NCBI RefSeq assembly: GCF_014138285.1
Contig: NZ_JACGXN010000013.1
Location: 1-64,000 of the forward strand
Direction: 5' to 3'
Source of the DNA: Phyllobacterium myrsinacearum
Lineage (GTDB): Bacteria; Pseudomonadota; Alphaproteobacteria; Rhizobiales; Rhizobiaceae
DNA: 64,000 bases
The notes under the pieces are model-generated. The model was not told the DNA's origin. It saw nothing but the letters and a program-made list of their open reading frames with translations, and made no database searches. The translations under genes were made by a program, and so were the position numbers. This document shows positions 2,236-43,749 of this stretch, in pieces (positions within the stretch are counted from its first letter, which is position 1; each line of letters begins with the position of its first letter).

Positions 2236-3786
2236 TCAGGCTTCTTTGTCAGTCTCGACGTAGCGCGGGAAAATCGGCTGCGGCGCGGGCAAATCCGCAC
2301 CGGGCACGAGTTCACTGCCGCCGAGCAGGTCGGAAAAATTCCGCTTGTCAGCAGGCACCGCCAGAACATCAAGCAGCTTTGCTGCTGATCCCGGAATGAA
2401 CGGCTGGCAGAGAATACCAACACGCCGGATAACCTCGGCCGTCACGTAAAGAACGGTTTCCATCCGTGCCGGATCGGTCTTTTTCAGCGCCCATGGCTCC
2501 TGTGATGCAAAATACCGGTTGGCTTCGGCCACCACGGCAAAGATCGCTCCGAGCGCCAGATGCATGGCCTGTGTACCCACAGCCTTGCGGGCTGTCTCCA
2601 GCGCTGCAACCGCCTGATCGAGGATTGCCTTGTCGACATCCGTCAATGCGCCGGGCTGCGGAACTTTGGCTTCGCAGTTCTTGTTGATCATCGATAGCGA
2701 CCGCTGCGCCAGATTGCCAAGATCGTTGGCAAGATCCGCATTGGTGCGGTTGACAATGGCCTCGTGGCTGTAATTGCCGTCCTGGCCAAAAGGCACTTCA
2801 CGCAACAGGAAATAGCGAACCTGATCTAGACCATAATGTTCAACCAGTGAGAACGGATCGATGACGTTGCCAACCGATTTCGACATTTTCTCACCGCGGT
2901 TGAAAACAAAACCGTGGCCAAACACGCGCTTTGGTAGTTCTATCCCCGCAGACAACAGGAAAGCCGGCCAGTAGACGGCGTGGAAGCGGATGATGTCCTT
3001 GCCGATGATGTGCACGTCGGCCGGCCAATAGCGCCAGCGATCGGCTTTCTCGTCGGGATAGCCAACAGCCGTGAGGTAGTTGGTCAGGGCGTCGACCCAG
3101 ACATACATGACGTGCTTTTCATCGCCGGGAACAGGAATGCCCCAGTCGAAGGTTGTGCGGGATACCGAGAGGTCTTTTAGTCCCGATTTGACGAAGGACA
3201 CAACCTCGTTGCGGCGCTCATCCGGCCCGATAAAACCCGGATTGTCCGCATAAAGCTTGAGAAGACGATCCTGATAGGCGGACAGACGAAAGAAATAGCT
3301 TTCCTCTTCCAGCCATTCTACCGGGGAACCCTGAGGGCCGTAGCGAACACCATCTGCACGCACTTCCGTCTCATCTTCCTGATAGTAGGCTTCGTCGCGC
3401 ACGGAATACCAGCCGGAATAAGAATCCTTGTAGATATCCCCCGCTTCGACCATTTTCTGCCAGATCGCCTGCGATGACTTGTAGTGTCGCTCCTCGGTGG
3501 TGCGGATAAAATCATCATAGGATGCATTCAGGGCGTGCCCCATATCCCGGAAAAGCTTGGCATTTCTATCGGCGAGCTCGCGGGGTGTGATGCCTTCCTT
3601 GCGCGCTGTCTGATGCATCTTGATGCCATGTTCGTCCGTTCCGCTGAGGAAGAAAACATCCTTGCCGTCATGACGGTTGAAACGGGCGATCGCATCGGTT
3701 GCGATCAGCTCGTAAGCATGACCGATATGCGGGCTGCCGTTCGGATAGGAAATGGCTGTAGTGATGTAAAATGTTTCGCGGCTCAT
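2236..3786 (-). CDS. metG: Methionyl-tRNA synthetase
   Basis: Class I synthetase that charges tRNA(Met) in the cytoplasm. 516 residues from the ATG at 3786, which begins MSRETFYIT and fits the short MetG of alphaproteobacteria. The open frame continues 51 codons further upstream, but that extension shows no family similarity and is not used. The HIGH signature (PHIGHAYE, about residues 18-25) and KMSKS signature ([10 protein letters not shown], about residues 300-309) are intact, followed by the helical anticodon-binding domain. There is no C-terminal tRNA-binding extension. A 149-base gap separates it from holB, so it may have its own promoter. Confidence 0.96.
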
Positions 3787-3935
3787 ACGTAACCTGATTT
3801 GCTTCGGATTTTGTATCTTGGGAAGGCGTAGGCTGACATAACCCATGTCCGGCCCGATTGCTATACCGGTCGTAAACTCATGATCTGATTGAAATAATAT
3901 TCCACGGTCACGGGATATGCGCAGGAAACGGCCGA

Positions 3936-4994
3936 TCAACGTGCAAGAAGTGCGCGATGCAGCCTGTCCAGAAAGATAAGAACGGATTGCTTGCGATCAA
4001 GATTGAAGGCATCGGCCTCCCGAGCTTCGCTCTGCATCTCTTGCCAGAGCGTCGACCAGTGATTGGCTTCAACTATGGCACCCTTCTCCGCAGCTTCCCG
4101 CGCCCTGGCCGCCACCCGCGAGAATATGTCCTCAAGGAAGAGATCAAACTGAATCTCGGAATCCCGGCCTGACAGGGCTGTTCCAAGCGCCTGCGCTTTC
4201 GGCACGTCAAACACCGGTTTGGTCAGAATGGCGTCGATGGTCTGTGATATTTCAAGTCCGCCAAAAACCATGAGCAACGCCGCCTTGCGTACGCTACCAT
4301 CCGCATGGGCCACAAGCGCTTCAGTGTCCGAAAGTTGATCCGCGCCGAGACCGATCGTTGCGAGCGCCGAAAGGAGGTTATCGCGATCCAGTCCTTCAAA
4401 CCGGATGGACTGGCAGCGGGAACGGATCGTGGGCAGTAAACGACCTGATGAATGCGAGATCAGAATGAACAATGTTCGTTGTGGTGGTTCTTCAAGAGTC
4501 TTCAGTAACGCATTGGCTGCATTGCGATTCATGTCATCTGCTGGGTCTACAATAACGATGCGCCAAGCGCCGTCATGCGCGGTGCGATTGAGAAAATGCG
4601 TCACACGGCGAATCTCGTCAACAGTGATTCCGGTCTTGAATTTTCCTGTCTTGGCATCAAGCGGCCGGCTTATGTGCAGGATGGCCAGATGCGTGCCCAT
4701 AGCAATCTGCCGGTAGGGTACTACGGCAAAATCAGGCTTTGCGAGCTCCAGCGGGGCATCATTCTGGACGGGATGCTTGAGCATGTGCCCGGCGAGGTGA
4801 AACGCCAGCGTGGTCTTGCCTACGCCCTGCGGGCCTTCCAGCAGCAGCGCGTGGTGCATATGGCCGGACTGGTAGGCCTGCGCCAGGAACAAACGCACGG
4901 CGGCATGGCCGAACAGATCGGGATTGGCTGATGGCGCCGGGATGCCGTCAATGGAATCATGAGTTGCGGGAACGTCGAGAACAGCGTCGCTCAT
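3936..4994 (-). CDS. holB: DNA polymerase III subunit delta prime
   Basis: 352-residue AAA+ clamp-loader subunit that helps open the beta sliding clamp at the replication fork. A Walker A segment [10 protein letters not shown] lies near residues 52-61, the [28 protein letters not shown] block near residues 143-170 is characteristic of HolB/DnaX, and the sensor-1 segment (FILISHS) follows. It overlaps tmk by 4 bases (ATGA), the usual tmk-holB coupling in Hyphomicrobiales. The usual zinc-binding cysteines of DnaX are absent, as expected for delta prime proteins of this clade. Confidence 0.93.
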
Positions 4995-5665
4995 GGTGCC
5001 GTTCCTGCCTTGGATTTTGCCTTGATGGCCCTGCTTGCTTTCAACCGGTCGGCAAGCTCGGCAATATCGGCAGCGATCTCATCTACGGGTCTGTCGGCTG
5101 CAACGACCTTGCAGCGGGCGGGCTCGGCCTTGGCGATAGCCAGATAGGCGTCCCGCCGCTTGCGGTGCATGTCGATCGTCTCCTTCTCGAAGCGGTCGGC
5201 AGTCCCTGCCCCGCGGCGTGCATTGGCGCGTTGCAGACCGGTTTCAGCGGGCAGGTCAAGAATGATGGTCAGGTCAGGCATCAATCCGTTGATTGCCGCG
5301 CGCTCGATCGCGCGCATCAGCCCGGTATCAAGATCGCCTGTAACCCCCTGATAAACCCGGCTGGAATCGATGTAACGGTCACAGAGAACCATGCTGCCCG
5401 TGTTGAGCGCCTGGCGGATGACCTGTTCGACATGATCATTGCGAGCGGCGGCAAACAGAATGGCTTCCATAGCGGGACCGAACGGCTCGGCAGCGCCGCT
5501 CAGAATAACATGGCGCACCGCCTCCGCACCGGATGAGCCACCCGGCTCGCGTGTCACCAGCACATCGTCGCCGGCCGCGCGCATATGCTCTGCCAGACGG
5601 GTGATCTGGGTTGATTTACCGGCGCCCTCGCCGCCTTCAAAGGTAATGAACAGTCCCTGTTGCAC
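4991..5665 (-). CDS. tmk: Thymidylate kinase
   Basis: 224 residues. It phosphorylates dTMP to dTDP with ATP in the dTTP pathway. The P-loop [11 protein letters not shown] (residues 9-19), the DR-Y motif (CDRYIDSS, about residue 95) and the lid region with [11 protein letters not shown] are visible. The C-terminus has a basic, alanine-rich tail. The gene precedes holB with an ATGA overlap. About 90 bases separate it from the upstream DD-carboxypeptidase-like gene. Confidence 0.95.
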
Positions 5666-24376: not shown

Positions 24377-25630
24377 TTAGCCATTGGCTGCGTGCAAAAC
24401 TCTGGGTCTGCTCTGTTCATGTTCGGCAATGTAGGTTCGCGTCAATGGAATAACATCGTTTCTCTTGGCAATCTGAAACTGGAAAACCACGAGGTCTTCG
24501 TAACGGAATGCAGACTCGGCAGCAGCAAGATAGAATTCCCACATCCGGCAGAAGCGTTCATCATACAGTGCTGCAGCATCCTGCCATCGATCCATGAAGC
24601 GTTCGCGCCACGCAGACAATGTTGAAGCATAATGCAGGCGCAGAACTTCGACATCAGTGACTGTCAATCCGGCTTTCTCGATTTCCGGCAGTATCTCTGA
24701 CATGGATGGAATATAGCCCCCCGGAAAAATATATTTGTCGAGCCATGGGGTGGTAAAGCCCGGGACCGCGGAACAACCAATCGTGTGCAAGACCATTACA
24801 CCATTCTCATCCAGCAGTTCCGCGCATTTCCGGAAAAATTGGCCATAGGATCCAGCGCCGACATGTTCGAACATTCCGACTGAAACAATCCGGTCAAAAG
24901 TGCCTTTCAGGCTACGATAGTCCTGCAGGGCAAAGTTGACGCGATTGAAACGGTTCTTCGTGCCCGGTCTGTTGTTAGCAAATTCAAGCTGTTCCTCCGA
25001 GAGCGTTATGCCAAGTACTTCGCCGGATGGTGCTTCCGCTGCAAGATGCAGGGCCAAGCCTCCCCAACCGCAGCCGATGTCAAGGACGCGGCTATCCGGC
25101 TGAACCAGAAGCTTGGCGGCGAGATGGCGTTTCTTAGCAAGCTGTGCGTCTTCCAGACTTTGATCCTGATATTCGAAGTAGGCACACGAATATTGACGAT
25201 CAGCATCAAGAAACAGACCGTACAGCCTGCCATCCAGATCATAATGGTGCGCAACATTGCGTTTCGAACGTGCGGGCAGATTGCGCTGCCGGAAACCTCT
25301 GAAACGAGCACGCAAACCGTCGATCAGGCGGGCAGGAAGCGGATGCGTTTCATTCTGGGCTTCGCGCAGTACCAGACAAAGAAAATCGTAAATCGTTCCT
25401 TGATCGACGACGATGCGCTCATCCATGAACAGTTCACCGAGTTGCATGTCGGCATCCATCAGAAAGAGCAGCTGTGCCGCCCTGTCGGTAAAACGCACAA
25501 CGACTGGCTCTCCGCTACCATCGCCGAAAGCAAGACGGGTCCCGCTTGCCGTGACGACAGTCAGTGAGCCTTTGGTCACAATACGGGAAAAAGCGAAACG
25601 CAGAATCCGGTCCACCAACGAAAGAGGCAT
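24377..25630 (-). CDS. Cyclopropane-fatty-acyl-phospholipid synthase family methyltransferase
   Basis: 417 residues. The C-terminal two thirds is the SAM-dependent CFA synthase domain: YSCAYFEYQDQSLEDAQLAKK, the SAM motif VLDIGCGWGGLALHLA (about residues 185-200), VSVGMFEHVG and YIFPGGYIPS. CFA synthases add a methylene bridge to unsaturated acyl chains of membrane phospholipids. The N-terminal 120 residues form the less conserved lipid-binding part. It lies downstream of the sigma/anti-sigma pair on the same strand with a 120-base gap, and may belong to that stress regulon, which is inference. Confidence 0.92.
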   Translation of the reverse strand: MPLSLVDRILRFAFSRIVTKGSLTVVTASGTRLAFGDGSGEPVVVRFTDRAAQLLFLMDADMQLGELFMDERIVVDQGTIYDFLCLVLREAQNETHPLPARLIDGLRARFRGFRQRNLPARSKRNVAHHYDLDGRLYGLFLDADRQYSCAYFEYQDQSLEDAQLAKKRHLAAKLLVQPDSRVLDIGCGWGGLALHLAAEAPSGEVLGITLSEEQLEFANNRPGTKNRFNRVNFALQDYRSLKGTFDRIVSVGMFEHVGAGSYGQFFRKCAELLDENGVMVLHTIGCSAVPGFTTPWLDKYIFPGGYIPSMSEILPEIEKAGLTVTDVEVLRLHYASTLSAWRERFMDRWQDAAALYDERFCRMWEFYLAAAESAFRYEDLVVFQFQIAKRNDVIPLTRTYIAEHEQSRPRVLHAANG

Positions 25631-25750
25631 GCAGACACTCCTGAGGCCATAGGTGTTCGCCTCCTAGCACGTGGTGATGATTACAGGATTACGCCAACCT
25701 GATGCCAAAATGAAATGAACGCGGCCTGAATCCGACCACTGTCATTGTCA

Positions 25751-29766: not shown

Positions 29767-30423
29767 ATGCGACTGCTGCTTGTTGAAGATGACATGATGC
29801 TTGGCTCTTCGTTGAAGAAGGCGTTGGAAAAGCATGCCTATGGCGTGGATTGGATGCAGGACGGAGAGTCCGGACTGGCCGCATTGCAGGATTCGAGTTT
29901 TGCTGTTGTCATTCTTGACGTAAACCTGCCCAGGATGAGCGGTCTTGAAGTGCTCAGGGCTGCGCGACGCGACAAGAATCTTGTTCCCATCCTGCTATTG
30001 ACCGCACGAGACACGCCACTGCACAAGGTGGAGGGCCTGGACAGCGGCGCGGATGATTATCTGGTCAAACCGTTTGACCTCGATGAATTGCTGGCACGGT
30101 TGCGCGCGCTTGTCCGCCGGAGTGAAGGCCGGGTGGACACCATCCTCAGATGCGCCGACGTGGAAGTGGACCCGGCTGCCAAAGTGGTACGCAAGGCATC
30201 AAACCAGGTCATGATGACCGCGAAGGAGTTTCAGCTTCTGAAACTGTTGATGGAGCGCGCCGGTAAATACGTTACCAAGAGCGATATAGAATATGCGCTC
30301 TACAGCGCAGAGAGCGCAGTCGAGAGCAACACAACCGAAGTCACGATCTATAATCTGCGCAAGAAGCTGGGCAGCGACTTCATTAAATCCATCCGTGGTG
30401 TGGGCTACATGGTGGATGCATGA
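29767..30423 (+). CDS. OmpR-family response regulator (TctD/QseB-like)
   Basis: 218 residues. Receiver domain with acidic pocket E7-D8-D9, phospho-acceptor Asp51 (VVILDVNLPRMSG) and the conserved K (VKPFDLDELLARLRALVRR), followed by an OmpR-type winged helix (VMMTAKEFQLLKLLMERAGKYVTKSDIEYALYS, IRGVGYMVDA). It overlaps the histidine kinase gene by an ATGA. An 11-bp tandem repeat of the OmpR-family type lies in front of the eight-gene block downstream of the kinase, which suggests that block as its target. Confidence 0.93.
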   Translation: MRLLLVEDDMMLGSSLKKALEKHAYGVDWMQDGESGLAALQDSSFAVVILDVNLPRMSGLEVLRAARRDKNLVPILLLTARDTPLHKVEGLDSGADDYLVKPFDLDELLARLRALVRRSEGRVDTILRCADVEVDPAAKVVRKASNQVMMTAKEFQLLKLLMERAGKYVTKSDIEYALYSAESAVESNTTEVTIYNLRKKLGSDFIKSIRGVGYMVDA

Positions 30424-31799
30424 GCAGACCCACCCTCACCCGGAAACTCTTTTTCCGGATTACGCCGACAATCCTCATTACCATGGCAATCATCGGTGGT
30501 TTTGCGTTCAACAGTGCCACCCGCGAAATCAATAATGTCTATGACGCGCAGCTGATCAACGATGCCAATGTGCTGTGGATGCTGCTGCACAATGAATTTG
30601 ACGAGGAGCCGCGGGATGCTCCGCCGAAGCAGATTGCCGACATCGATTTCAACATGGGCAATCAGCTGGCACTCAACGAAGACGCCGATGATTATGCTGA
30701 CGCGCATATGTTCCGGGCATGGAAGGACAACAAGATCGTCCTTTTCTCGGGATCAACCTTTCCAGCGGAAATTCCGCTGCAAAGAGCAGGTTTCACCAAT
30801 GTTCACTACGACAGCGAGCAGTGGCGGATTTACTCCCTGCCCATTCCCGAAACGCAGATCGTGATCGAGGTGGCGGAAAAGATCGCCATGCGCCAGACGC
30901 TGGTGTCGAACATTCTGCTCAACCTTATTTTCCCGCTGCTCATCCTCATTCCCCTGATCGCCCTTCTGATCTGGTTTGGCATCAACAGCGGCTTGAGCAC
31001 GATCCGCATGCTGGTGCAGCAGATCCGCAGCCGGTCACCGGATGATCTGTCCGCCATTCCCGTCGACACGCTGCCAAGGGATCTTTCCCCGCTCGGCCGG
31101 TCGATCAATCAGCTGCTTGAGGATTTGGATGACTCGCTGAAAGCCGAACGGCGGTTCGCTGACCATGCGGCACATCAGTTGCGTACACCACAAGCCGCCC
31201 TCAAACTGCTTTTGCAGATGCTGGCGCAGGCGGACAGCGAGAAAGAGCGGCAGGCTATCATCAGCGACCTCGTTGTCAGCAATGAAAAAGCCACCTACCT
31301 CATCGAACAATTGCTGCGCGCGGCACGCGTGAGCCACCAACCGATGCAACTGCAGCCAGTCGCCTTGTATAGTACCGTGGCCTCCGTGGTCGCTGAAATG
31401 GGAAATCTGATAACTGCCAAGCAATTGGATACTTCACTCGATGGCGATGAAAAGGCGCTGGTGCGGGCAGACGAGCCCCTGCTGCGACTCATGGTCAGCA
31501 ATCTGATCGAGAATGCAGTCAAATACACGCCATCGGGCGGGCGAATTCGCGTCGGTGTTACGCTTGCCAACAATTTCTGGCGTCTGTCCATTTCCGACAG
31601 CGGCCCCGGAATCGCCGAGCATCACCGGGAAGCCGTGTTCCAGCGATTCTATCGTGTCGACACGCCGCAGATCGAGGGAACAGGTCTCGGATTGACGATT
31701 GTCGCTGATATTATCAAGCGGCTTTCCGGCACGATAGCTTTGAAATCACCGGCATCAGGCAAGGGTTTGCTCGTCGAAGTTCTTCTACCAAAAGCATAA
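30420..31799 (+). CDS. Sensor histidine kinase (TctE-like)
   Basis: 459 residues. Two membrane helices (about residues 12-32 and 166-190) enclose a periplasmic sensor domain of about 130 residues (2CSK_N type). Then come a HAMP-like linker, the H box ADHAAHQLRTPQAALK with phospho-accepting His252, and the ATPase domain with N (LIENAVKYTPSGG), D-x-G-x-G (ISDSGPGIAEHH) and G (GTGLGLTIV) boxes. It is co-transcribed with its response regulator. TctE relatives sense tricarboxylates, but the ligand here is not predictable. Confidence 0.93.
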   Translation: MSRPTLTRKLFFRITPTILITMAIIGGFAFNSATREINNVYDAQLINDANVLWMLLHNEFDEEPRDAPPKQIADIDFNMGNQLALNEDADDYADAHMFRAWKDNKIVLFSGSTFPAEIPLQRAGFTNVHYDSEQWRIYSLPIPETQIVIEVAEKIAMRQTLVSNILLNLIFPLLILIPLIALLIWFGINSGLSTIRMLVQQIRSRSPDDLSAIPVDTLPRDLSPLGRSINQLLEDLDDSLKAERRFADHAAHQLRTPQAALKLLLQMLAQADSEKERQAIISDLVVSNEKATYLIEQLLRAARVSHQPMQLQPVALYSTVASVVAEMGNLITAKQLDTSLDGDEKALVRADEPLLRLMVSNLIENAVKYTPSGGRIRVGVTLANNFWRLSISDSGPGIAEHHREAVFQRFYRVDTPQIEGTGLGLTIVADIIKRLSGTIALKSPASGKGLLVEVLLPKA

Positions 31800-31844
31800 T
31801 TTCGTAGCGTCCAAGTAAGCCTGAATGCCTTTGTTGATTTCAGT

Positions 31845-31866
31845 TTGGCATCATCTTGGCATAATT
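31845..31866 (+). promoter_or_regulatory. 11-bp tandem repeat, candidate OmpR-family operator
   Basis: TTGGCATcATc at 31845-31855 is followed without gap by TTGGCATaATt at 31856-31866 (9 of 11 identical). Tandem half-sites with an 11-bp period are the usual target of OmpR/PhoB-type regulators. The site lies 56 bases before the first gene of the eight-gene block and 46 bases after the kinase stop. Control by the upstream two-component system is inferred. Confidence 0.55.
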
Positions 31867-31921
31867 TAGCAATCAGCCCTGAATGCTAGAAGCTCCTCAC
31901 ATTCGCACGAGGAGTGTCTGC

Positions 31922-32605
31922 ATGCATGTATTTTGTGATTTCGACGGGACCATTTCCCTCGAAGACGCCACAGACTTCATACTGGATCGATTGGCCAGCC
32001 CGAAATGGGAAGACATCGAACAGGAATGGAAGCAGGGCCTCATCGGTTCCGCCGAATGCATGGCGCGTCAGATTGCCCTGATCCAGGCCACGAACCAGGA
32101 ATTGGACAGCGCACTTGACGATATCGCCATCGACCCGACCTTTCCCGCTTTCATCGACTTTTGCTGGGCTCAAGGCATTCCTGTCACCATCATCAGCGAC
32201 GGCGTTGACTACTTCATCAAGCGTATCCTTGCCCGCTACAATCTGGATTATCTGCCCGTCATCGCCAACAAGCTGACCATCAGCGGCATGAACGGCCATA
32301 CACGGTATCAACTGAGCTCACCCTACAGCGATGCCGACTGTTCTTCAGCGGCAGGTGTCTGCAAATGCCGCTCGGTCGAAGCCTTCGATACACGTGTCTA
32401 TATCGGCGACGGCCGTTCTGATTTCTGCGTCTCCGATAAGCCGGAACTGGTTTTCGCCAAAGACAAGCTTGCCGATTTCTGCACTGAGCGCGCCATTCCG
32501 TTCGTCGGCTATCAGAATTTTTCCGACCTTACCCAGAGCCTGAAAAATGCACTCCCCGGTTTCAACCGCCACCTACAGAGTGCTCCCCGCTACGCCACAG
32601 CGTAG
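31922..32605 (+). CDS. HAD-IB family phosphatase (MtnX-like)
   Basis: 227 residues from the ATG at 31922, which has a GAGGAG site 7 bases upstream; the frame extends 13 codons further without support. HAD motif I is CDFDGTIS (Asp nucleophile, residues 4-11), motif II Ser in TIISDGVD, motif III/IV in YIGDGRSDFCVS. The helical cap is short, as in MtnX, SerB and PHOSPHO1-like enzymes, which remove phosphate from small phosphorylated metabolites, including phospho-amino alcohols. It is the first gene of the eight-gene block. Substrate unknown. Confidence 0.88.
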   Translation: MHVFCDFDGTISLEDATDFILDRLASPKWEDIEQEWKQGLIGSAECMARQIALIQATNQELDSALDDIAIDPTFPAFIDFCWAQGIPVTIISDGVDYFIKRILARYNLDYLPVIANKLTISGMNGHTRYQLSSPYSDADCSSAAGVCKCRSVEAFDTRVYIGDGRSDFCVSDKPELVFAKDKLADFCTERAIPFVGYQNFSDLTQSLKNALPGFNRHLQSAPRYATA

Positions 32606-32628
32606 TTTGACAACAGAAGAGAATCTTC

Positions 32629-34050
32629 ATGAAAACCAACCTTGCTATCAAGCAGAATGATAATGCTGCGTCACAGCAGATATCCGAAGCCGAACTTCGT
32701 GCCCTTGAGCAGGAATACTGCTCGCATGGTGACACGGTCCACTACACCGACCATCCGATGTTCTTCGATCGCTGCGAAGGTTCCTACGTCTATGATGCGA
32801 AGGATACCCCCTTCCTCGATCTGCAGATGTGGTATTCGGCCGTCAATTTCGGCTATCGCAATCCACGCCTGAACGCTGCCGCGCACCGTCAGCTGGATAC
32901 GCTGCCTCAGGTAGCGTCGCAGTATCTGCATCGCGAGAAGGTTGAGCTGGCCGCCATGATCGCGCGCGATGCCGAGCGCAAGTTCGGTGCCAAGGGCCGT
33001 GTTCACTTCAATGTCGGCGGTTCACAGGCTGTTGAGGATTCCCTCAAGCTCGTCCGCAATTACACCGGTGGAAAAAGCCTGATGTTCGCCTTTGAAGGCG
33101 GCTATCACGGCCGAACGCTCGGCGCATCGGCTATCACATCCAGCTATCGTTATCGTCGGCGCTATGGACACTTTGGTGACCGCGCCCAGTTCATCGAATT
33201 CCCCTACCACTTCCGCGGCCCCAAGGGCATGAGCAAGGAAGAGTACGGTCATTACTGCGTCCAGAAATTCGCCCGCCTTTTCGAGAGTGAATATAATGGC
33301 GTATGGGATCCGAAAACCGGTAAGGCCGAATATGCCGCGTTTTATGTCGAACCCATTCAGGGCACCGGCGGTTATGTCATTCCGCCAATGAATTTCTTCA
33401 AGGAACTGAAGAAGGTTCTCGATGACCATGGCATTCTGCTTGTGGTCGACGAAATCCAGATGGGTGTCTACCGCACAGGCAAGCTGTGGTCGATCGAGCA
33501 TTTTGGCGTAACACCCGATGCGCTTGTATTCGGCAAGGCGATCACCAACGGCCTCAACCCGCTTTCCGGTGTCTGGGCCAAGGAAGAAATGATCAACCCC
33601 GGCATTTTCCCGCCCGGTTCCACACATTCGACATTTGCCAGCAATCCGATGGGGACAGCTGTTGCCCTCGAAACCATGAAAATGCTTGAAGAAGAAGACT
33701 TCGGTGCGGCAGTCATGGAAAAGGGTGCCTATTTCCTGGATGGCCTGAAGGAACTGCAAAAGCGTCACCCTACGATTGGCGATGTCGACGGGCTTGGCCT
33801 CGCGCTGCGTGTGGAGATTTGCAAGGAAGACGGCTTCACCCCTGACAAGGCGACGCTCGACTGGATGGCCGACGAAGGCATGAAGGGCGACCTGCTTGTC
33901 GGTGCCAAGGAGTATGGCCTGGTGCTGGATGTTGGTGGTTATTACAAGAATGTCATCACATTAGCTCCAAATCTTCTTATCACACATGAGGAAATCGATC
34001 TGGCTCTGAACTTGCTCGACCAGCTTTTCGTGCGCGCAGCCAAGAGATAA
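32629..34050 (+). CDS. Class III (omega-type) PLP aminotransferase
   Basis: 473 residues. The PLP-binding pattern is clear: FNVGGSQAVEDSLKLVR (phosphate loop), GGYHGRTLGASAIT, the VVDEIQMGVYRTGKLW segment with the Asp that pairs with the pyridine nitrogen, and the Schiff-base Lys303 in VFGKAITNGLNP. Relatives transaminate terminal amino groups of ornithine, diaminobutyrate, GABA or amino-alkyl compounds. An unusually long N-terminal region and the 30-residue insert after PYHFRGPKGM set it apart from the housekeeping enzymes. It starts 23 bases after the phosphatase stop. Confidence 0.92.
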   Translation: MKTNLAIKQNDNAASQQISEAELRALEQEYCSHGDTVHYTDHPMFFDRCEGSYVYDAKDTPFLDLQMWYSAVNFGYRNPRLNAAAHRQLDTLPQVASQYLHREKVELAAMIARDAERKFGAKGRVHFNVGGSQAVEDSLKLVRNYTGGKSLMFAFEGGYHGRTLGASAITSSYRYRRRYGHFGDRAQFIEFPYHFRGPKGMSKEEYGHYCVQKFARLFESEYNGVWDPKTGKAEYAAFYVEPIQGTGGYVIPPMNFFKELKKVLDDHGILLVVDEIQMGVYRTGKLWSIEHFGVTPDALVFGKAITNGLNPLSGVWAKEEMINPGIFPPGSTHSTFASNPMGTAVALETMKMLEEEDFGAAVMEKGAYFLDGLKELQKRHPTIGDVDGLGLALRVEICKEDGFTPDKATLDWMADEGMKGDLLVGAKEYGLVLDVGGYYKNVITLAPNLLITHEEIDLALNLLDQLFVRAAKR

Positions 34051-34054
34051 TCGA

Positions 34055-35008
34055 ATGCAACTCCTCCTTCTCCACCTCGATGATGCGCTGGAGTTGCAAC
34101 CAGACTTCGTGCGCGCCTGTATGCGAATGGGCGCGCGCCAGATTCGCGCGGAAGATCATGGCCGTGTCGTCCGCCTGTGGGGTCACCAGCCAGCAATAGA
34201 CGCACTTGGCGGCAATATCGCGCGGCATATTATCGGTGACCAGAAGAAACCGCATCTCTGCTTCATGGGATCGGGTGATTTCCACCACGTAACCGCCCTC
34301 CTCGTCGCTGCCGCGCTTGAAAACAATCCCGGTCCGGCAACGCTCGTCCATTTCGACAATCATCCGGACTGGGTACATTTCGGCAATGGCATGCATTGCG
34401 GGTCATGGATCAACCGCGCCCTGCAACATCCGGGGCTCGAGAAGATCGTGACGGTCGGCGTTTGCAGCGATGATCTGACGAGCCCTGAACGCAAAGGGGC
34501 AAACCTGTCTCTCTTGCAACAGGGTCGGCTGGAATTGTACCCGTATAGTCACGCGCCTAGCCGCGTCCGTAAGGATTACGGCAGCGGCGCAAGCTTCGAG
34601 CAGAAGAATGGCGTCCTGAACTGGAAGACTATCTCCGAGATCGGCGAAGAAAACTTCATCGACCAATTGCTGTCGCGGATCAAGACCGACGCGGTGTATC
34701 TGACGATCGACAAGGATGTTCTCGTCCATGACGATGCCATAACCAATTGGGATCAGGGGAAAATGCGCCTCCCCTATGTCCTGTCGCTGATTACGGAGAT
34801 CAGCAGGCGCCACCGGATCGTCGGCGCCGACGTGACCGGTGATTATTCGACACCATCCTATGCCGGCAACCTGTGGACGCAGTTTACCAAGCGTGCAGAA
34901 ATTTTCATCGATCAGCCACACACGACACCAGACCCCATAGCTACAACGAACATCAACAGCGCCGCCAATCATGCATTGCTGGAAGTTCTGTCGGAGGCAA
35001 TGGGATGA
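34055..35008 (+). CDS. Arginase/ureohydrolase-fold enzyme
   Basis: 317 residues. The manganese-site motifs of the arginase/HDAC fold are recognisable in a divergent form: GSGDFHH (for GGDHS), HFDNHPDW (for D-A-H-x-D), LTIDKDVLVHDD (for S-x-D-x-D-x-x-D-P) and the terminal GADVTGDYS. Four metal-binding Asp/His positions are thus kept. The family cleaves C-N bonds of guanidines (arginine, agmatine, formiminoglutamate) or of acylated amines. The unusual motifs suggest a different substrate. It starts 4 bases after the aminotransferase stop. Confidence 0.82.
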   Translation: MQLLLLHLDDALELQPDFVRACMRMGARQIRAEDHGRVVRLWGHQPAIDALGGNIARHIIGDQKKPHLCFMGSGDFHHVTALLVAAALENNPGPATLVHFDNHPDWVHFGNGMHCGSWINRALQHPGLEKIVTVGVCSDDLTSPERKGANLSLLQQGRLELYPYSHAPSRVRKDYGSGASFEQKNGVLNWKTISEIGEENFIDQLLSRIKTDAVYLTIDKDVLVHDDAITNWDQGKMRLPYVLSLITEISRRHRIVGADVTGDYSTPSYAGNLWTQFTKRAEIFIDQPHTTPDPIATTNINSAANHALLEVLSEAMG

Positions 35009-35358
35009 CCGGTACCCTTACGCCCCACATGCTTGCATTGATCGCATTCTGCATTCTTACAGAAACGGCACGCGAGGTTTGCTTCAAGCACTCCGCCGAC
35101 AACGAAGTGCTCTCCGCCGCTCTGGTCAAGCCCGTGACCTGGCTTGGCGTGATCTTCTGGGCGCTTGAATTGATCGGCTGGACTGTCGTGCTGGAGCATG
35201 TGCCGCTGTCGATCGCCTTTCCGCTCATGGCCCTGAGCTATGTCGTCATCGTGCTCGCCGGAGCATGGATATTCAAAGAACAAATCAACCTTCGCCACGC
35301 CGCCGGTGTGCTGTTCATCACAGCCGGTGTGGCTTGTGTAGGAGCAACAGGATTATGA
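35005..35358 (+). CDS. SMR/EamA-type four-helix membrane protein, subunit 1
   Basis: 117 residues, four predicted membrane helices (about residues 8-24, 40-63, 66-90, 95-114). The sequence pattern (WALELIGWTVVLEHVPLSIAFPLMALSYVVIVLAGAWIFKEQI) follows the small multidrug resistance/ArnE-ArnF type, with the conserved Glu in the first half (TETAREVCFK). Such half-sized proteins work as dimers, including heterodimers such as ArnE/ArnF (lipid flippase) or MdtI/MdtJ (spermidine). A second SMR gene ends this block, so a heterodimer is likely. It overlaps the arginase-fold gene by ATGA. Confidence 0.85.
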   Translation: MTGTLTPHMLALIAFCILTETAREVCFKHSADNEVLSAALVKPVTWLGVIFWALELIGWTVVLEHVPLSIAFPLMALSYVVIVLAGAWIFKEQINLRHAAGVLFITAGVACVGATGL

Positions 35359-36230
35359 AACTCTTCGCTCATACGAGGTGGGACGTTGCGCCCGTTTTGG
35401 CTGCCATCGCCCACCTTCTTTTCAATATCTACTTGGTTGTCGGCTTTGAAAGCAGGCCATTATGGTTGTCGCTTGTGCTTGGCGGGCTCTACGCGGTTTC
35501 GATCTCGTGGAACATCAACAGCATTTCGCACAACTTCATCCATACGCCCTATTTCAAGCCACGCGGGATGAACTATGCGTTCAGCCTGCTGGAATCGGTC
35601 ACCATCGGGTTCTCTCAGACCTATTATCAGTGGATTCATATGCGCCATCATTCAGGCAACAGCGACCGTCCGAATGAGAAAGGCGAAACAGTCGACTGGC
35701 TGTCCATTTATCGCCATGGCAAGAATGGTGAGCCGGAGAATGTCTGGAGCTATACGTTCCTCAGTTTCTTCCGCGACAGCCTCGGTGACATTCACAAGGC
35801 CATTGCCAAGAACCGCCCGTTCGACGCCAAATGGGGCCGTTTCGAGCTCTATGCGTTTCTCGGGCTGGCTGCGATCGGCTTTCTCTACGACTGGAAAGCG
35901 ATGCTGTTCTTCATCCCCTTCTACTATCTGGGGAATTGCCTGTCCTCGCTCAACGGGTACTACGAACACCTGAATGGTGATCCGGAAGAACCTATTGCCT
36001 GGGGCGTAAGCAGCCATAACCGTTTCTATAACTGGTTGTGGTTCGGCAACGGATACCACGCCGAACACCATTATCGCCCTAAGACCCATTGGACTGAACT
36101 GCGTAACTTCCATGAGAAAATCAAGGAAGACCAGGATAAGGCCGGCGTGCACGTCATCAGCACCTGCCATGCGTTGGGTTTCATGGCCAAAGAGAACAGA
36201 AACCCGGATATGATTGATGCAGATGTCTGA
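35355..36230 (+). CDS. Membrane fatty acid desaturase
   Basis: 291 residues. All three histidine boxes of membrane di-iron desaturases are present: HNFIH (residues 59-63), HMRHH (95-99) and HAEHH near residue 236. Hydrophobic segments flank them (about residues 10-30, 38-55, 158-190). The enzyme inserts a double bond (or hydroxyl) into an acyl or alkyl chain, with electrons from a ferredoxin or cytochrome b5-type donor that is not encoded here. It is shorter than most acyl-lipid desaturases. It overlaps the SMR gene by ATGA and the next gene by 14 bases. Confidence 0.9.
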   Translation: MKLFAHTRWDVAPVLAAIAHLLFNIYLVVGFESRPLWLSLVLGGLYAVSISWNINSISHNFIHTPYFKPRGMNYAFSLLESVTIGFSQTYYQWIHMRHHSGNSDRPNEKGETVDWLSIYRHGKNGEPENVWSYTFLSFFRDSLGDIHKAIAKNRPFDAKWGRFELYAFLGLAAIGFLYDWKAMLFFIPFYYLGNCLSSLNGYYEHLNGDPEEPIAWGVSSHNRFYNWLWFGNGYHAEHHYRPKTHWTELRNFHEKIKEDQDKAGVHVISTCHALGFMAKENRNPDMIDADV

Positions 36231-37035
36231 TGGATTGAGCTATTTCCTCGAAGGCTCAAATGGCAAAGGCGTGTTGCTCGTCCATGGTCTGACGGGAGCA
36301 CCCGCGGAAATGAAGATGCTGGCGCGGCAATTGAACCGCAAAGGCTACAGCGTCTATGCCCCGCTTCTAGCCGGGCACGGCGTTGATATGGCGACATTGA
36401 CGCGAAGCCGCTGGCAGGACTGGCTGGAAAGCGTGCACGAGGCGACGGAGAAGTTTGCGCCCTATACCGATAAAACATTTGCAGCCGGTATCTGCATCGG
36501 CGGCAAACTGTCGATGATGGCCGCACACCAGAAGCCCGACAGCATCAAGGCTGTGGCAATCTATTCGCCCTGCTTCCATTATGATGGCTGGAATGTGCCG
36601 CATTATTACTGGTTGCTGTCTCCATTCATCGAGCTGTTGTCGCATATTCCTGCAGTCGCCCGGCTGAATTTCAGCGAAACCTCGGCGCTCGGCATCAAGG
36701 ATGAGCGAATCCGGCGCATGATGGAGAGCATGTCTGCCGAGGGGGTCATCGACAAATTTCCGGGAAAAGGCATTGCCGAGATGTACCGTCTTGGCAAGGC
36801 GTTGAAGAAAACCCTGCCGCAGATGCGGACACCAACGCTGATCCTGCACGCCATGGAAGATGACTTGAGCAGCCCCAAACATGCCCGATACATCAGCCGC
36901 CACATCGGCGGACCGCATCAACTGAAATGGATCGAGGACAGCTATCACATGATCCATGTCGACCGGCAGCGCCAGAAAGTCGGTGACTATACGGCAGAAT
37001 TCTTCGAGGCGAACAATGCTCCAGCCCATGCATGA
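36217..37035 (+). CDS. Alpha/beta hydrolase with Cys in the nucleophile elbow
   Basis: 272 residues from the ATG at 36217; the ATG at 36223 is possible. The oxyanion loop VLLVHGLTGAPAEM, the nucleophile elbow A-G-I-C-I-G-G (Cys93 at the place of the usual Ser in G-x-S-x-G), the Asp in MEDDLSS and the His in MIHVDRQ form a Cys-His-Asp triad. I verified the TGC codon. Carboxylesterase/lipase-like sequence overall (TrEst/Est30 type). A Cys nucleophile is known from dienelactone hydrolases and acyltransferase-type enzymes. It may transfer or remove an acyl group in this pathway. Confidence 0.85.
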   Translation: MQMSDGLSYFLEGSNGKGVLLVHGLTGAPAEMKMLARQLNRKGYSVYAPLLAGHGVDMATLTRSRWQDWLESVHEATEKFAPYTDKTFAAGICIGGKLSMMAAHQKPDSIKAVAIYSPCFHYDGWNVPHYYWLLSPFIELLSHIPAVARLNFSETSALGIKDERIRRMMESMSAEGVIDKFPGKGIAEMYRLGKALKKTLPQMRTPTLILHAMEDDLSSPKHARYISRHIGGPHQLKWIEDSYHMIHVDRQRQKVGDYTAEFFEANNAPAHA

Positions 37036-38194
37036 TCATGTCGTGCAGCACGTGGCTGCATCATCGAAAATTGCCGTTATAGCCCAGGCGCGCGTGTTTG
37101 AGTCGATCCGCGCCATCGGCCGGGATGCCTGGAATAAGTGTTTTCCCGACGAGGTTGAGGATTACGATTGCCTGCTTGCCATTGAGGAAGCGGGAATTTC
37201 CGGCTTTGCTTTCCGCTATGTCACCGTCATGGAAAATGGCCAGTTGCTGGCGGCAATGCCCGCGTTCCTGACCGACTATCAGCTGGATACGACACTGGAA
37301 GAAGGCCGCTTGCGCCAGATTCTGCGCCACGTCAGGCGGGCCTTTCCACGCTTTCTCACGCTCAAACTGGCCTGTCTCGGGTCGCCATGCACTGAGAATG
37401 GCGTGGCGGGATTTCACCCGAACGTGCTTGAACGGCGCAAGGCCGATCTGTTTTCGCAGCTGCTCCGCGGCTTTGAGCATTATGCAAAGACAAATGATTG
37501 TTCGCTGATCGGCATCAAGGATGTGCCGGAACCAGCGACCCAGACATATGGGGGCGTTTTCGCTGATCATGCCTTTGCCGGCATTCCCGGACTGCCAACG
37601 GCCTGGCTAAACATCGATTTCGACGCCATCGACACCTACATGGCCCGGCTTTCATCCGGAACGCGCAAGGATATGCGCCGGAAAATGAAATCCTTCGACA
37701 AAATCCGGGTGGAGAAACGCACGGATTTTGGAACCATGCTGCCAGAGGTCATGGCGCTTTATCATGACACGCGCAACCGCAGCGAATGGCAGTTTGAAGA
37801 ACTGACTTCAGACTATTTCGCCGGCATTCTGCGTCAGATGCAGGGACGTTCCTTCTGCACCTTCTACTACGCTGATGATCAGTTGCTGGCTGCCAATCTA
37901 CTGGTCCATGACGGCAACACTCTGATCGACAAGTTCTTCTGCATGAACAGCGCCGAAGGCCGTGCGTACAATCTCTATTACCTCAGCTGGTTCACCAATC
38001 TGCGCCATTGTCTGGATCATGGGATAAAACGCTACCAGAGCGGACAGGCCTACTACGAAAATAAGATAAGGCTCGGTAGCCAGCTGACGCGCAACACCAT
38101 GTATTTCAAGCACCGCAACCCGGTTATTCAATGGGCTTTGCGCCTCGCCTCACCGCTCTTCGCCGCGGACGAAACCTTGAGGGATGGCGCATGA
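37016..38194 (+). CDS. GNAT/FemAB-like acyltransferase
   Basis: 392 residues from the ATG at 37016; an ATG at 37028 is possible. The C-terminal half shows the double-GNAT pattern of the BioF2/FemAB-like group (LSSGTRKDMRRKMKSF, MALYHDTRNRSEWQFEELTSDYFAGILRQMQG, FCTFYYADDQLLAANLLVHDGNTLIDKFFCMN and YYENKIRLGSQLTRNTMYFKHRNP). Such enzymes transfer acyl or aminoacyl groups to amino groups of cell-envelope or secondary metabolites. It overlaps the hydrolase by 20 bases and the last gene by ATGA. Confidence 0.85.
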   Translation: MLQPMHDHVVQHVAASSKIAVIAQARVFESIRAIGRDAWNKCFPDEVEDYDCLLAIEEAGISGFAFRYVTVMENGQLLAAMPAFLTDYQLDTTLEEGRLRQILRHVRRAFPRFLTLKLACLGSPCTENGVAGFHPNVLERRKADLFSQLLRGFEHYAKTNDCSLIGIKDVPEPATQTYGGVFADHAFAGIPGLPTAWLNIDFDAIDTYMARLSSGTRKDMRRKMKSFDKIRVEKRTDFGTMLPEVMALYHDTRNRSEWQFEELTSDYFAGILRQMQGRSFCTFYYADDQLLAANLLVHDGNTLIDKFFCMNSAEGRAYNLYYLSWFTNLRHCLDHGIKRYQSGQAYYENKIRLGSQLTRNTMYFKHRNPVIQWALRLASPLFAADETLRDGA

Positions 38195-38607
38195 AGCCGA
38201 TTAATCTCGTCTGGTTTGCCATACCGGTTCTCAATACCCTGTTTCAGGTCTTCATCAAGCTTGCTGCGGAACAGATGACCGGGCTGGGTTTTGATGTGGC
38301 CTGGCTCGTCCACGCGGTCACGTCGCCGTGGATGCTGGCCGCCATTGCGGCTGAAGTTGTCTGCTTCGTGTTCTGGCTGCAGGCACTGGCCCAGCTTGAC
38401 CTGAGCAAGGCATTTCCCCTAACCGGCATCAGTTACGTGATGATCCTTGCAACAAGCTGGCTTGTTTTCAGGGAAGACATCACCGCACTGCAAATTATCG
38501 GTAGCACGCTCATTCTCATCGGAGTCTGGCTAATCGGCACTGCCTCCGGAGCACAGAAAGACAGCGAGCCATCGCTTTCAAGCGTGATACCCCACAACTT
38601 ACACTAG
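38191..38607 (+). CDS. SMR/EamA-type four-helix membrane protein, subunit 2
   Basis: 138 residues with four predicted helices (about residues 5-22, 44-66, 72-95, 101-120). The FWLQALAQLDLSKAFPLTGISYVMILATSWLVFREDI pattern parallels the first SMR protein (AFPL, SYV, W-F-E positions align), so the two are homologous halves, with a longer polar C-terminal tail here. The ATGA overlap makes it the last gene of the block. Together with subunit 1 it probably forms an antiparallel heterodimer that exports or flips the pathway product. Confidence 0.83.
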   Translation: MKPINLVWFAIPVLNTLFQVFIKLAAEQMTGLGFDVAWLVHAVTSPWMLAAIAAEVVCFVFWLQALAQLDLSKAFPLTGISYVMILATSWLVFREDITALQIIGSTLILIGVWLIGTASGAQKDSEPSLSSVIPHNLH

Positions 38608-43437: not shown

Positions 43438-43547
43438 ACCCGCTGGGACTTGAAACACGCAATACTGCCGCCTATATCAGCTGCAGAAATTCGGTTCCGC
43501 CTTTGACCACGGATGTACTGGCATTGATGTTGAGCCGAGTTTGGAAA

Positions 43548-43571
43548 GGTCGGGATTTCCCGGCCTTTTTT
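43548..43571 (+). terminator. Intrinsic terminator
   Basis: GGTCGGGA / TCCCGGCC stem followed by TTTTTT. Located downstream of the DUF883 gene, so its transcript may extend to here. Confidence 0.7.
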
Positions 43572-43749
43572 ATTGTCTTTTTGCATCAGCATGATCCTTA
43601 TCGGCGATACTTCAACCGGTCTTCTGTTGCGCCTGAGGGACGGAACATCTATGAAAGACGGGAATAGAGCCTTGATCTGGCTGGATCAGGTTTTACGATT
43701 GAAGTGAGCCCCTTGATTCCGTACCGGGGTGTGTAGAGCGAGCTGCCCA

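Follow-up and report, generated by a model that had tools for sequence, protein, structure and literature searches.

The 64,000-nucleotide stretch of Phyllobacterium myrsinacearum DNA analysed here (contig NZ_JACGXN010000013.1, positions 1 to 64,000; hereafter the window) raises the question of what a row of eight densely packed genes behind a two-component system might produce. The original prediction regarded this block as a candidate undescribed amino-lipid or acyl-amine pathway. Comparison with related loci indicates that seven of the eight genes are a co-inherited unit and no chance neighbourhood, and the broad amino-lipid idea was supported. The preferred reading, given a slightly better than even chance, is that a sensor-controlled unit builds and translocates an amine-bearing envelope lipid or a lipid-linked amine. 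The eight open reading frames lie on one strand (31922-38607), and the families named for them were all confirmed:

31922..32605, + strand: HAD, MtnX-like HAD-IB phosphatase (TIGR01489, 111 bits against a cut-off of 81.6; Pfam HAD)
32629..34050, + strand: AT3, class III pyridoxal phosphate (PLP) enzyme (PF00202, 263 bits; K303, Thr444)
34055..35008, + strand: ARG, arginase-fold metallohydrolase (PF00491, 43.5 bits against 22; alignments; model and Foldseek)
35005..35358, + strand: SMR1, small multidrug resistance (SMR)/EamA-type protein (NCBIfam ArnE, 49.5 bits, below the cut-off of 92)
35355..36230, + strand: DES, membrane fatty-acid desaturase-family protein (PF00487, 98 bits; three His boxes intact)
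36217..37035, + strand: ABH, alpha/beta hydrolase with Cys in the nucleophile motif (PF12146, 86 bits)
37016 (or 37028)..38194, + strand: GNAT, FemAB_like tandem-GNAT transferase (PF04339, 51.8 bits; model and Foldseek)
38191..38607, + strand: SMR2, second SMR/EamA-type protein (NCBIfam ArnF, 49.6 bits, below the cut-off of 99)

For HAD, the start at 31922 was preferred over the ATG at 31883 because it fits the relatives, and GNAT may start at ATG 37016 or 37028. The tight packing was borne out, but not the count of four overlapping junctions: five of the seven overlap (by 4, 4, 14, 20 or 8, and 4 bases), and the other two leave gaps of 23 and 4 bases compared with the earlier 4-24, a slightly tighter packing. 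HAD reaches the NCBIfam subfamily models MtnX-like and HAD-IB, and no NCBIfam equivalog cut-off was reached by the eight proteins among the models shown (for AT3, 25 of 69). The genome containing the window comprises 5.97 Mb, and the closest named relatives of ARG were found in Phyllobacterium, with 89-93% identity.

Relatives were gathered by searching genomes with ARG and plasmids with GNAT; the latter gave a GNAT relative in 48 plasmid records, of which 11 were examined. Profile searches with 21 marker genes over longer loci and removal of duplicates by hand led to 54 non-redundant loci. Locus counts refer to the 48 loci of at least 17 kb, the shorter six (L024, L026, L036, L079, L081 and L092) being dropped, and seven rows with stand-alone ARG homologues (L028, L029, L031-L034 and L035) were left out of the cluster counts. 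A core of seven genes (HAD, AT3, ARG, SMR1, SMR2, ABH and GNAT) was complete in 42/48 loci. Singly, HAD was present in 43, AT3 in 46 and SMR1, SMR2 and ABH in 44 each, and ARG and GNAT occurred in 48/48, partly by construction, because both served as baits for picking loci. Two or three core genes are missing from three loci (L025, L082 and L085), and three Bartonella plasmid loci (L043, L091 and L104) retain AT3, GNAT and ARG only; on one of these plasmids (L043), a gene for an MBOAT acyltransferase lies near them. Over the 38 loci with all seven genes and the main PLP type, the genes diverge in step, with correlations of 0.83-0.99 between their pairwise distances, shared descent accounting for part of these values. 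DES was found in 20/48 loci and is therefore not core, so that the co-conservation anticipated for eight genes holds for seven, with an optional desaturase.

Within the genus, the cluster is accessory and was found in 9/19 other genomes. With the window genome counted in, it was further detected in 11/297 at the level of the family, 4/385 of the class (one of these four matches being weak and with a stop codon) and 16/398 of the phylum. Among the named carriers are Rhizobium and Agrobacterium plasmids, Aureimonas, Roseomonas mucosa, Azospirillum, Bartonella and Xanthomonas sacchari, and gene order differs between lineages. In the preferred reading, the block is a pathway that spreads by horizontal transfer and is run in this genome by a QseB/PmrA-like two-component system of its own. 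In the Xanthomonas copy (L045, 5776-5859) and in L103 (13157-13243), a tRNA gene precedes the start of HAD by at most about 360 bases, which suggests insertion at tRNA sites, like some islands. A copy on a plasmid of Nostoc sp. C052 was considered as a cluster member and rejected as a different cluster with a GNAT identity of 24%, and it was not counted. It comprises (L044, 1671-15918) a remote GNAT, a class III PLP enzyme, a desaturase, a nitric-oxide-synthase oxygenase, a formyltransferase and a DevBCA-type exporter, and may be another product pathway.

The two-component system was correctly placed upstream of the block, with response regulator and kinase at 29767-31799, and a direct-repeat box, presumably the binding site of this regulator, stands before the operon and before a separate gene for a cyclopropane-fatty-acid synthase family protein (CFA):

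29767..30423, + strand: response regulator of the OmpR family, QseB/PmrA-like (NCBIfam QseB 209.5 bits and PmrA 208.6 bits, below the equivalog cut-offs of 345 and 330)
30420..31799, + strand: sensor histidine kinase, QseC-like (NCBIfam QseC 195.1 bits, below the equivalog cut-off of 475)
31837..31876, + strand: 11-bp direct-repeat box ahead of HAD, consisting of ATTTCAG followed by TTTGGCATCAT, CTTGGCATAAT and TTAGCAATCAG, about 46 bases before the HAD start
25677..25716, - strand: same box ahead of CFA, 47 bases before the CFA start (exact pattern match at 25688-25713; matrix score 38.1)
24377..25630, - strand: CFA, cyclopropane-fatty-acid synthase family protein (PF02353, 291.6 bits), proposed regulon member

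Besides the window, 20 related loci with a two-component system of this type carry the box between kinase and HAD. These 21 loci defined the box and trained the weight matrix, and many of them come from genomes that were also searched whole. A whole-genome search with the pattern TCAKTTTSGCWTCAKBTTSGCNTMAK, allowing up to 3 mismatches, gave four matches in the window genome, including two exact ones ahead of the operon and ahead of CFA. It also located the box near the cluster in 14/14 further cluster genomes, nine of the genus and five others that were picked since this type of two-component system adjoins their cluster. Among genomes without an ARG match, the box occurred in 1/20, with three mismatches (L147), and a reversed-pattern control yielded zero matches in all 35 genomes. 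Weight-matrix scores ranged from 39.7 to 58.9 before HAD, which is the training set, and from 37.5 to 43.9 before CFA, outside training; elsewhere, the best values were 4.4 among 16 clusters from other lineages and 3.1 among 20 shuffles of one locus. The link of the block to the two-component system was supported by these searches.

CFA directly follows SMR2 in several copies from Rhizobium, Agrobacterium and Phyllobacterium, and no separate box precedes it at that place. In that branch of Phyllobacterium to which the window belongs, CFA lies apart from the operon with its own box 47 bases off, as seen in six loci (L107, L017-L019, L096 and L097). Overall, CFA was tallied in 15/48 loci; in three more (L017-L019), a CFA gene is cut by the locus edge and scored under the threshold. 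This pattern, a box for CFA only where it stands outside the operon, is the strongest single indication that CFA belongs to the system and that acyl tailoring is part of what the system does in rhizobia. The lipid theme of the original prediction was supported for rhizobia, with DES inside the operon and CFA linked to it either through its place there or through the shared box. Membership has to be redrawn: seven genes of the block form the core, and CFA, which lay outside the block as first described, is part of the unit as far as the rhizobial branch is concerned.

A gene for a 115-residue VanZ-like protein follows a box with 1-2 mismatches at a distance of 184-206 bases in four Phyllobacterium genomes (that of the window, G004, G012 and G016). 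In the window genome, it is located in L116 (G000:C1:60500-68500) at 2648-3220, 200 bases behind a one-mismatch box; a Pfam VanZ match (35.5 bits against 30.1) was obtained for this copy only, and the other three are alike by eye. For VanZ proteins, an action on lipid head groups has been proposed in the available part of a published report (PMC12419801). A MarR-like gene lies behind a three-mismatch box in L117 (G000:C10:74000-81000) at 3871-4519, and its place in the regulon is uncertain. In L133 / L102, a second box is present near 5579 (G684:C18) before a 354-residue open reading frame, the start of which resembles the HAD N-terminus by eye and then diverges; the promoter may have been duplicated here and the gene start fused. 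Further downstream in the window, an Rfam match to the alphaproteobacterial small RNA ar35 was found at 43463-43574 on the + strand (59 bits).

AT3 belongs to the PF00202 class III family, and the PLP lysine K303 and D274 are present in 52/52 aligned rows, in which some genomes appear twice. Thr444 stands where Arg is found in the five aligned solved chains, which include two forms of one enzyme. In the 52 cluster rows, this position is Thr in 48 and Ser in 4, and Arg, presumably the binder of the substrate carboxylate, is absent. The AT3 rows have Thr or Asn at the position of GABA-transaminase (gamma-aminobutyrate transaminase) Glu211. Four of the 52 rows belong to another class III type, with one carrying the annotation glutamate-1-semialdehyde aminomutase, and likewise lack Arg. 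Without this residue, ordinary glutamate/alpha-ketoglutarate transamination is doubtful, so that the predicted class III aminotransferase stands as to family and PLP lysine but not readily as to that reaction. Judged from these residues, an aminomutase, a lyase or an enzyme with an unusual amine donor is more likely than a glutamate transaminase.

In ARG, H77, D101, H103, D105, D219 and D221 are invariant in 19 aligned sequences; we take these His and Asp residues to be the metal-binding positions of the arginase/ureohydrolase superfamily. Its signature (DNHPD, CGxW and DKDxL..TNWDQG) is mostly common to stand-alone proteins of Firmicutes. The structural model (predicted local distance difference test, pLDDT, 93) matched guanidinase and agmatinase first in Foldseek and then other ureohydrolases, with a template modelling (TM) score of ~0.5-0.6. 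Sequences of solved structures gave a single weak match (E 0.077). An assignment as agmatinase or guanidinase proper is not supported, the agmatinase models of NCBIfam scoring 29.1 and 25.3 bits against cut-offs of 302 and 174. Stand-alone relatives with TNWDQG occur in Firmicutes (L028, L029, L031-L034) and Bacteroidales (L035) and constitute an orphan family with a wider role; their seven loci showed no common neighbourhood by eye.

GNAT has the tandem-GNAT fold of FemABX and MprF aminoacyl transferases. With its model (pLDDT 85), Foldseek returned Sbb17 with an E-value of 4.8e-11, FemX from 5e-11 upward and MprF-type proteins at 1e-9 to 8e-8, with query TM scores of ~0.45-0.59. As the closest folds, Sbb17 and FemX, are aminoacyl-tRNA-dependent, GNAT may, according to this model, transfer an amino acid instead of an acyl group. 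The role in acylation originally assigned to it is weakened by these matches, but CoA-using tandem GNATs follow close behind with similar E-values. ABH carries the nucleophile motif GICIGG; Cys, predicted as its nucleophile, is indeed found in the window, but only in 25/48 aligned sequences, with Ser in 23/48. The His boxes of DES are invariant in 21 aligned sequences.

SMR1 has E20 in its first hydrophobic stretch, a position which is E or D in 46/46 and presumably corresponds to E14 of EmrE. SMR2 has Asn there, and in 47 sequences the residue is N, D or E, and once S. With PF00893, SMR2 reached 23.0 bits against a gathering score of 23.7, and SMR1 gave no match. In NCBIfam, the ArnE/ArnF models gave both proteins better scores than the Qac or Ebr models did. 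The expected ArnE/ArnF-like pair is therefore upheld as to the best-matching named subunits, but both scores stay under the cut-off.

From these parts, a route to the proposed amine-bearing envelope lipid or lipid-linked amine can be drawn. AT3, as an aminomutase, lyase or unusual transaminase, and HAD would convert a phosphorylated precursor to a small amino alcohol. ARG would hydrolyse a C-N bond (amidino, guanidino or amide) and release a free amine, to which the FemABX-type GNAT would couple an aminoacyl or acyl group. ABH, with Cys in rhizobia and Ser elsewhere, would add or trim an acyl chain, which DES and CFA would tailor in rhizobia and which a pair of beta-ketoacyl synthase (KS) and acyl carrier protein (ACP) may supply in some other lineages. 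The SMR1/SMR2 pair would flip the product across the inner membrane, and a DevBCA-like ABC exporter together with TolC might carry it further outward in some lineages. The likely benefit would be an altered envelope charge or permeability in membrane stress. A more detailed version is tentative, with clearly less than an even chance. It envisages a widespread undescribed envelope lipid with an amino alcohol made by a mutase- or lyase-type PLP enzyme and the phosphatase, FemABX-type conjugation (possibly with an amino acid from tRNA), desaturated or cyclopropanated acylation and flipping by a new heterodimeric SMR pair; induced by a dedicated sensor together with CFA and VanZ, it would harden the membrane against cationic agents.

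Several points weigh against this reading. Fold matches are moderate for both ARG and GNAT (TM ~0.5-0.6), CoA-using tandem GNATs score nearly like FemX, and both SMR proteins are under the cut-offs (SMR1 49.5 against 92 for ArnE, SMR2 49.6 against 99 for ArnF). Most non-rhizobial copies lack DES and CFA, which makes an acyl chain uncertain for the core. The window genome has four other strong CFA-family genes, and CFA itself is hence not specific for the system. The Bartonella version with AT3, GNAT and ARG need not concern lipids and would represent a core that is reduced or put to another use. As to regulation, binding of the adjacent response regulator to the box is presumed from linkage and repeat spacing. 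L025 has a similar two-component system with the box absent, and the genome-wide box search covered, among cluster genomes, those with this type of two-component system. Moreover, one exact box match (L126, G013:C1:2543740-2543765) has no notable open reading frame within 450 bases downstream, and weaker matches (L140, L142 and L145) are without an assignable gene. The link to EptA, described below, consists of 1/48 loci and one published table.

Known systems resemble the unit in part. The arn operon (ArnBCADTEF), which adds aminoarabinose to lipid A, likewise combines two-component control, an aminotransferase, an amine-freeing hydrolase and an SMR-type flippase pair, and SMR1/SMR2 match ArnE/ArnF best. 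In contrast to arn, none of the eight proteins had a Pfam match to a glycosyltransferase or DegT, or more generally to the families of the ArnC/ArnT glycosyltransferases and the ArnA/ArnB sugar-nucleotide enzymes; the SMR scores are about half the curated cut-offs, and HAD, GNAT, the arginase-fold enzyme and the alpha/beta hydrolase have no arn counterpart. DegT aminotransferases are neighbours in 13 of the 48 loci and MipA/OmpV in 15, and the DegT protein of the Xanthomonas copy reached 45.2 bits with the ArnB model (cut-off 631). With the aminoacyl-phosphatidylglycerol synthases MprF/LpiA, the unit shares a GNAT model resembling the catalytic domain, and addition of an amine to a lipid would give the same benefit; however, Pfam detects only FemAB_like and Acetyltransf_6 in GNAT, identity in the fold alignments is ~12%, and a whole pathway surrounds it. 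The ornithine-lipid pathway (olsBA and tailoring enzymes) embodies the idea of a phosphorus-free amino lipid, but OlsB/OlsA-type acyltransferases are not among the eight proteins according to Pfam. EptA phosphoethanolamine transferase and DgkA diacylglycerol kinase follow the cluster on A. fabrum pAt2788a (1/48 loci). In outline, the system is like Arn, Ept and MprF, a sensor-controlled envelope modification, yet it is not filed as a member of those systems because several defining features failed where tested.

Like gene kinds in one run were also found in island 11 of the disinfectant-resistant Serratia sp. HRI (PMC9964261). Rows 49-64 of Table 2 in the available part of that report list an outer membrane factor, an ABC permease, an ABC ATPase, a membrane fusion protein, an MtnX-related phosphatase and an alpha/beta hydrolase, together with two DMT proteins, an 891-bp gene, a 'peptidogalycan' GNAT, a class III aminotransferase, two-component genes and EptC. 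There, the run is treated as efflux and hypothetical genes, and in that part of the report no pathway is recognised and no resistance is tied to the run; the comparison with the block is by names and lengths only. Among open-licence papers, no published pathway with this gene set was found, in agreement with the original view of an undescribed pathway.

Other explanations were also weighed. A secreted natural product such as an antibiotic, toxin or signal, for which the SMR pair and a DevBCA/TolC-like exporter serve as export route and which requires lipid genes because it is lipophilic, is judged unlikely. It would suit the accessory, mobile distribution (9/19 genus genomes; 48 plasmid records with a GNAT relative), the TolC, ABC and HlyD genes adjoining 8-9/48 loci, the KS and ACP genes in three and the remote GNAT homologue beside DevBCA genes in the Nostoc plasmid cluster. 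The exporter ATPase and permease, examined in the Xanthomonas and Agrobacterium copies, matched the DevA and DevC models, with scores under the cut-offs. No such exporter was seen in 39/48 loci within the stretch examined; in addition, the box is common to CFA and the VanZ-like gene, that is, to envelope functions, and phosphoethanolamine transferases adjoin 1/48 loci and one published run. PmrA/QseB-like systems are typical envelope sensors, which also counts against secretion. Functionally unrelated stress genes held together by mobility alone are barely credible: plasmid and island locations and the variable gene order would fit, but the same seven genes recur across families despite reordering, with matched divergence and overlapping reading frames.

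Detoxification of cations, guanidine or polyamines, by SMR export and arginase-fold hydrolysis of guanidine compounds, is improbable. SMR proteins are known for export of guanidinium and quaternary ammonium, and the ARG model matches guanidinase and agmatinase first, but SMR1 and SMR2 are closer to ArnE/ArnF than to Qac or Ebr models, no riboswitch above the Rfam gathering score was detected in the window or 14 related loci, and GNAT, hydrolase, phosphatase, desaturase and CFA would be left unexplained. The Serratia run comes from a disinfectant-resistant isolate, as far as the available part of the report goes without a test of cause (PMC9964261). A very small chance is given to a rhizobitoxine-like route, with AT3 and HAD turning dihydroxyacetone phosphate into serinol and the desaturase, like RtxC, working on a small amino acid ether. 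In the available part of its description, RtxA transaminates and dephosphorylates dihydroxyacetone phosphate to serinol with glutamate as preferred donor, and RtxC is a desaturase (PMC3222319). By analogy to rtxA and rtxC, PLP-dependent amino transfer to a phosphorylated C3 precursor combined with a desaturase is conceivable; however, AT3 lacks the Arg expected for glutamate, Pfam detected no O-acetylhomoserine-sulfhydrylase-like protein among the eight, so that the sulfhydrylase part is missing from the block, and the desaturase is dispensable (20/48).

The seven-gene pathway is thus carried on plasmids, islands and chromosomes of many Proteobacteria, including plant symbionts and clinical isolates, seemingly with no described product, and the shared box points to its likely regulator. 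If the envelope-lipid reading is true, these bacteria would have a further surface-altering route beside Arn, Ept and MprF, and three orphan groups would gain functions, namely the TNWDQG arginase-fold enzymes, the FemAB_like transferases and a paired SMR-type flippase.

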